64,000 nucleotides of DNA. Origin: Paracoccaceae bacterium (GTDB lineage: Bacteria > Pseudomonadota > Alphaproteobacteria > Rhodobacterales > Rhodobacteraceae). This document shows positions 37,769 to 38,167 of this stretch, one piece after another; the first letter of the stretch is position 1, and every line of letters begins with the position of its first letter. The position numbers and the translations under genes are program-made. Under the pieces are notes generated by a model that ran no database searches, was not told where the DNA came from, and was given only the letters and a program-made list of their open reading frames with translations. The stretch is from NCBI GenBank assembly GCA_024742455.1, contig JANSYL010000007.1, forward strand, positions 1 through 64,000, read 5' to 3'.

Positions 37769-38149
37769 TCAGGGCTGATCGGCGGCGCGGGTGCCCTCAT
37801 GCAGATCGACCAGCGCATCCAGCATGTCCGATATGTCTTCCACCCGTTCGGCCACCACATGGGTGACGCCCGATTGCCGTTGCAACCGCCCGGTCACACG
37901 CAACAGCCGCCCCGCGATCACCGCGCGGCGGAATTGCTGGTAAATCTTCTGCCAGATGATGACATTGCAGATACCGAATTCATCCTCGAGCGTCACGAAG
38001 ATCACGCCCTTGGCGGTGCCGGGCCGTTGCCGTACCAGCACCAGCCCCGCCACCATCACCCGCGCGCCTTCGGGCGGCAGGTCCAGAAGGTGATGGGGCA
38101 GGCAATCGGGCGGCCTGGGCCAATCGGGCGGGACGATATCGGGCTCCAT
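37769..38149 (-). CDS. Stand-alone OB-fold protein resembling the DnaE2 C-terminus
   Basis: A 126-residue protein whose core ([20 protein letters not shown] ... [15 protein letters not shown] ... [11 protein letters not shown]) closely resembles the C-terminal OB-fold of the error-prone polymerase DnaE2/ImuC. The polymerase, PHP and finger domains are absent: directly upstream is a divergent ferredoxin gene. The N-terminal 30 residues ([22 protein letters not shown]) and the tail ([14 protein letters not shown]) do not look like flanking DnaE2 sequence. It is either a remnant left by a large deletion or a separate nucleic-acid-binding protein. A perfect SOS operator 4 bases before the ATG at 38149 indicates LexA control. 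An in-frame ATG at 38185 would place the operator inside the gene. Function is inferred only from the fold. Confidence 0.75.
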
Positions 38150-38152
38150 GGG

Positions 38153-38167
38153 GAACAAAAATAGAAC
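38153..38167 (-). promoter_or_regulatory. LexA/SOS box (GTTC-N7-GTTC)
   Basis: On the reverse strand the sequence reads GTTC-TATTTTT-GTTC, an exact match to the alphaproteobacterial LexA operator. It contains TATTTT as a possible -10, with TTGCGT 16 bases further upstream as a possible -35. Only four bases separate it from the ATG of the OB-fold gene, so transcription would start at or very near the start codon. Confidence 0.8.

Follow-up and report, generated by a model that had tools for sequence, protein, structure and literature searches.

A stand-alone OB-fold gene under a predicted LexA operator as the probable detached C-terminal domain of an error-prone DnaE2 polymerase in Rhodobacteraceae

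The window, a stretch of 64,000 nt from contig JANSYL010000007.1 of a Paracoccaceae bacterium (assembly GCA_024742455.1), contains a small gene (37769-38149, minus strand) that starts with ATG, forms a single clean frame and encodes a protein of 126 aa. Residues 31-106 of the product match the Pfam OB fold (PF01336, 4.3e-11), and the NCBIfam model of error-prone polymerases, NF004225, is covered at positions 951-1038 of 1047 only (5e-31), in agreement with a preliminary description of this DNA, in which the product was said to match nothing but the OB-fold tail of DnaE2. The score lies far under the cut-off of NF004225, so family-based annotation would yield only a generic nucleic-acid-binding name. 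A second match to the OB protein was not found in its own genome at E 10, and a search against PHROGs gave no match. The two neighbouring features of the preliminary description were also recovered: a gene for a 2Fe-2S ferredoxin (38260-38583, plus strand; Fer2, 2.5e-12) diverges directly upstream, and a perfect LexA operator, GTTCTATTTTTGTTC (38153-38167, minus strand), ends 3 nt before the ATG.

Structure prediction, proposed beforehand as a check, gave an OB fold with five strands and a C-terminal helix (AlphaFold2, 53-sequence alignment, pLDDT 88). Residues 1005-1099 of the Mycobacterium tuberculosis DNA polymerase 7pu7_A, of the Pol III alpha type, share this fold (VIA Z 12.6, 2.3 A over 91 residues), but there the OB is in cis, within a chain of 1070 residues, whereas in the window it is a separate protein. 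In the PDB structure comparison 7pu7 ranked 10 among many OBs with nearly equal scores, and the Foldseek top 50 consisted mostly of RPA, Stn1/CST and AspRS/AsnRS chains; since many OB families score alike, the fold alone assigns the protein to no family. The best sequence families are DnaE2 and Pol III alpha, and an SSB/RPA-like ssDNA-binding protein as the closest sequence family was rejected on this ground; a PDB sequence search gave weak matches, with RPA, Stn1 and SSB at E 0.05-0.65 only.

Both flanks of the OB core had been described as unlike DnaE2. This is true of the C-terminal flank, which is without the SRDFH tail, but the N-terminal flank aligns to the DnaE2 linker (e.g. RPRLPESLPHERL). 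Positions that separate 83 stand-alone OBs from 28 embedded ones include P13, A34, K47, Q90 and D111, and a WPRPP-like motif is found at the N-terminus of 71 of the 83 stand-alone proteins. A RAADQP-like C-terminal ending was observed in 22 of the 83, including the protein of the window (37771-37788, minus strand).

The search for short homologues, named beforehand as a test, found many of them, with conserved neighbourhood and operator. The best 80 loci of the contig profile search comprise 66 stand-alone and 14 embedded OBs; the closest relative among the matches listed is an uncultured Roseicyclus (83%), and other carriers among them are Ruegeria, Rhodovulum, Tropicimonas, Marivita, Roseovarius, Gemmobacter, Maritimibacter and a Planktomarina MAG. 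Neighbourhoods were compared at 88 loci, which include 65 of the 66 copies and 23 others, the two sets overlapping. A ferredoxin match lies upstream on the opposite strand at 85 of them (three at >1 kb), and degP matches, a peptidoglycan-binding ORF and hflC were seen at 55, 45 and 35 loci, respectively, these counts being limited by locus length. Thus, the OB gene is located at a fixed degP/ferredoxin site across many genera. Two loci (L178 and L181) occupy another genomic place and have no operator. On plasmids, 750 records match the OB query, none covering 80% of it; of the 25 plasmid matches listed, 18 bear an error-prone polymerase annotation and thus represent embedded OBs.

The GTTCN7GTTC operator precedes 61 of the 66 stand-alone copies among the best 80 loci, compared with 0.15 expected by chance (7 sites per 624 kb of their own flanks), and its placement is therefore not accidental; in the other set of stand-alone loci it was found upstream of 21 of the 23. 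The operator ends 1-3 nt before the start codon at most of these loci (53/61 and 17/21). In relatives the seven-base spacer of the operator has the consensus TATWTTT, and in the window it contains a predicted -10, TATTTT (38158-38163, minus strand), preceded at 16 bp by a predicted -35, TTGCGT (38180-38185, minus strand), so that the order is TTGCGT, 16 bp, TATTTT, ATG. Among 79 distinct upstream regions a TTG lies 16 or 17 bp upstream of the -10 in 60 (46 + 14), and other offsets are occupied in 0 to 6 regions, except offset 38. This second peak (14/79), 38 bp before the -10, perhaps belongs to the divergent ferredoxin promoter. The operator thus overlies a predicted promoter, as in genes of the LexA regulon; the promoter would be of the sigma-70 type, its -10 lying within the operator and its transcription start coinciding with the ATG or adjoining it. 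A -10 within the operator and a start codon beside the predicted transcription start suggest that the OB gene is SOS-repressed and has a leaderless mRNA; LexA would bind in front of it, and DNA damage would induce it.

The polymerase body was reported as absent. It is indeed missing from the neighbourhood, but the genome, which is 98.75% complete, encodes an OB-less DnaE2 on another contig (C16:199086-201953), found with the error-prone polymerase model as a frame of 989 aa that matches positions 4-938 of 1047. It scores 1216 bits against the NF004225 cut-off of 939; the Pfam polymerase, finger and HhH domains were matched, and the PHP match was below its cut-off (18.4 vs 25.6 bits). The body and the OB protein jointly span the DnaE2 profile (4-938 and 951-1038), the C-terminal OB domain of this DnaE2 being present only in trans. 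The DnaE1 of the same genome (contig C1) matches the profile at 4-1032 and hence appears to carry an OB of its own.

In relatives, the OB-less bodies end shortly after an LRAHPVALLRxxLTP-like motif (e.g. LRAHPVALLRHLLTP), and full DnaE2s continue past this motif into the linker, the OB and a terminal LFPSRDFH. Bodies were classified as OB-less by tblastn around 23 of them and six more, and the remainder by having no OB match at the body end. Around the 23 loci, tblastn with the OB gave chance pieces only (best E 0.14), and a query with the tail yielded nothing beyond short, weak matches (best E 0.010). SRDF[HR] was not seen at the C-termini of the OB genes or bodies of the main group of split genomes.

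The genome also encodes both ImuA and ImuB. The 3' part of imuA lies at the end of the window (63667-64000, minus strand); the gene extends to about position 64281 of contig C9 (imuA match 63733-64218), and its LexA box, GAACATTACATGAAC, is just beyond the window. The imuB gene is found on C16 (167358-169004). A contiguous mutasome operon is thus not present, the genes being at separate loci on C9 and C16. Loss of imuAB in split genomes was ruled out, as imuA and imuB were found elsewhere in the genomes; in G165 and G236 a search at E 0.001 revealed no imuA. A perfect LexA box precedes imuB at 11 of 11 loci, and imuA likewise has a perfect box at all 14 scanned loci of the 15 fetched, a set in which two genomes with full DnaE2 are represented. 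For the dnaE2 body, a GAACN7GAA[CT] box was found within 160 nt upstream at 18 of 18 loci checked among the 23 fetched; in 12 of the 18, own genome included, the box ends in GAAT, that is, with one mismatch, and the perfect site counted upstream of the body in the own genome (one of seven such rows) is an unrelated upstream site. Thus each of the four genes, imuA, imuB, dnaE2 and the OB gene, has a locus of its own and its own LexA-type box. The preliminary description had considered a deletion that fused the SOS promoter of an imu operon to the end of dnaE2; such a local event was rejected, as the OB site is fixed at degP/ferredoxin, apart from imuA, imuB and dnaE2, which are each preceded by a box of their own. 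In the genome of the window, imuB aligns with cassette-type ImuB as two segments that are about 126 nt apart, which suggests that some 40 residues are inserted near residue 157 of the split-group protein; a two-segment match of this kind recurs in many other split genomes.

The distribution of the two halves was examined in 199 genomes of the family, each at least 95% complete. At least 88 stand-alone OB genes were counted (frames of <=400 aa at E 1e-38 or better) and at least 89 OB-less DnaE2s, and weak members may be lacking from both counts. Five matches were left out of the 88: those on G191:C29, G124:C45, G128:C151 and G228:C128, each of which proved to be the terminus of a full DnaE2 that carries SRDFH, and G009:C2:6-275, at a contig start. 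One such weak member, the OB gene of G123, at the ferredoxin site and with a LexA box, was located by hand. Among the matches listed, both halves were found in 85 genomes, the body only in four and the OB only in three. Among the four with a body alone, the best ferredoxin homologue of G043 is not a close one (44%) and G177 and G193 gave no ferredoxin match, so that the draft assemblies of these three seem to lack the OB locus. In the fourth, G103, an OB was not detected, and the 222 nt that separate the ferredoxin gene from the contig end contain no operator or OB start; a different small frame, perhaps of an inserted element, begins there (L242 1822-2043). Among the OB-only genomes, G174 has a body in the form of two partial matches and a normal OB locus, G236 (apparently Thalassobacter stenotrophicus) has the OB gene alongside a different type of DnaE2, and G050 has an intact OB gene without any DnaE2 body. 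In the OB protein of G236, RHRPG replaces RQRPG and the WPRPP motif is absent. In G002, which has two full DnaE2s, all that is left of the OB gene at the ferredoxin site is a ruin that lacks the operator (L218 1822-2460), and no OB match was found at this site in G009, G035, G036 and G037. The co-retention of the halves is partly a matter of common ancestry.

The OB gene is under purifying selection. Among 31 pairs above 80% identity, dN/dS ranged from 0.036 to 0.348 in the 29 with finite dS (0.21 for the window and Roseicyclus), so the check among relatives proposed in the preliminary description gave no sign of relaxed selection. Pairwise OB distances correlate with those of the body (r 0.76) more than with those of the adjacent ferredoxin (r 0.50), and the partial correlation between OB and body is 0.68 (permutation p 0.0005); 19 of 23 genomes were used, two being omitted as having no listed body and two for lack of a ferredoxin pattern match. 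This is supportive of the OB evolving in step with the body, the ferredoxin being a short and slow control.

These observations make it probable that the error-prone DnaE2 is split and that the OB protein is its detached subunit, working in trans. The C-terminal OB domain of DnaE2 would have become a separate gene beside the ferredoxin gene, with its own LexA-repressed, probably leaderless promoter; the remaining body (PHP, polymerase, fingers and HhH) ends where the OB began and, like imuA and imuB, has its own LexA-type box. Upon DNA damage LexA would be cleaved and the parts made from their separate loci, and the OB protein would then provide in trans what the OB domain of other DnaE2s provides in cis, namely the nucleic-acid-binding function. 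It may associate physically with the body or with ImuB and may be needed for mutagenesis.

The alternative already raised in the preliminary description is that of a distinct damage-induced modulator, here taken as an independent SOS effector whose OB, once part of DnaE2, binds ssDNA or the replicase (DnaE1, clamp or SSB) and slows or remodels forks, without being a subunit of DnaE2. The best evidence for it is G050, which retains the OB gene without DnaE2; residues fixed only in the stand-alone copies (e.g. P13, Q90, D111) show new constraints, and the fold matches include the ssDNA-binding OBs of RPA and Stn1/CST. However, 85 of the at least 88 carriers keep an OB-less DnaE2, the evolution of the OB tracks that of the body, the OB gene is a ruin in G002 where DnaE2s are full, and the DnaE1 of the own genome appears to have its own OB. 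Co-retention and co-evolution thus favour the detached subunit, and the independent effector seems unlikely. Far less likely is a brake, in which DnaE2 came to tolerate being without its OB, and the OB protein is a competitor of DnaE2 or DnaE1 on ssDNA that keeps mutagenesis in check. A separate promoter would permit a different timing or dose, and OB-less DnaE2s have been reported (PMC3919608, accessible text), but just four of the at least 89 OB-less bodies were without a detected OB gene, three of them without the locus in the assembly, so that an OB-less DnaE2 on its own is rare or absent here. Decaying deletion debris, or a full dnaE2 interrupted by an error in the sequence, as a short ORF with similarity confined to the end of a known gene might suggest, is rejected as practically excluded by intact frames, operator and synteny in many genera, by purifying selection and by a body that is a separate OB-less frame on another contig.

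The detached subunit can be set against the known ImuA-ImuB-DnaE2 mutasome, whose cassettes may be contiguous or split (PMC3919608, accessible text). The likeness lies in the coverage of the DnaE2 profile by OB and body, in the LexA-type operators and in the presence of imuA and imuB; the difference is that here the OB is a separate, distant gene without an SRDF[HR] tail, a motif that terminates about 77% of DnaE2s according to the same source. Several DnaE2s without the OB domain were described there (Timinskas et al. 2013, PMC3919608); the bodies found here are likewise OB-less, but their OB persists in trans, with an operator and with co-retention, and no statement on an OB in trans was seen in the accessible text of that article. 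In another split system, ImuB is divided into iPolY and ImuB-C, with DnaE2X (NAR 2026, PMC12926913, accessible text); there too a mutasome component exists in two pieces, but it is a different protein, and the main text does not contain the terms 'OB domain' or 'OB-fold'. Nothing on a DnaE2 OB in trans was found in the open-licence PMC literature, the supplements of which (e.g. the LexA-site table of PMC6473078) could list the gene.

In a tree of 54 bodies (LG+G4 without mixture; G032 and G123 flagged as long branches), the 27 split bodies of the main group form one clade (100/100), and their common origin is well supported by this sequence comparison. Outside the clade there follow, in order, G119 (97/96), the full-length G004, and the full-length G016 together with G205 (100/98). 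In G119 an operator-preceded OB gene with a degenerate tail is located on a different contig from that of the body. In G205 (L231, 5626-10369) a separate OB gene of 185 aa with its own operator follows the body at a distance of about 1 kb, on the far side of an inverted ORF for a putative dimethylargininase, and the OB product still ends in SRDFH. The positions of G205 and G119 outside the main clade require two changes on the body tree, either two fissions or one fission with re-fusions. In the full-length DnaE2 of G016 (L098), body and OB are joined by a long GS-repeat linker, perhaps the scar of a re-fusion. The OB tree, from which five loci without the core pattern were omitted, has too few columns, and it places the stand-alone OBs on one side of a branch with a support of 82, or 53 if one unsure row is put outside. 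A plausible order of events is that dnaE2 left the imu operon, that the OB with its tail then split off and gained an operator, and that it finally came to lie at the ferredoxin locus, with loss of the tail.

A C-family polymerase normally consists of one chain that includes an OB domain. It is conceivable, with somewhat less than even confidence, that an error-prone polymerase of this replicative family was severed at one and the same domain boundary, perhaps on two or more occasions, and turned into an enzyme assembled in trans, in which the OB would act as a separately switched SOS key and mutagenesis would need several independent LexA promoters to be active, one of them leaderless with its -10 in the operator. 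As the OB has been cleanly separated by evolution, its role in SOS mutagenesis may be addressed through one small gene rather than by truncation of the enzyme. For OB-less DnaE2s of this clade, an OB elsewhere in the genome is offered as the explanation. One genome, seemingly that of the laboratory model Dinoroseobacter shibae (G034), carries a split DnaE2/OB pair on the chromosome and, on a plasmid of 126 kb, imuB together with a full DnaE2, and both designs might thus be compared within one cell.
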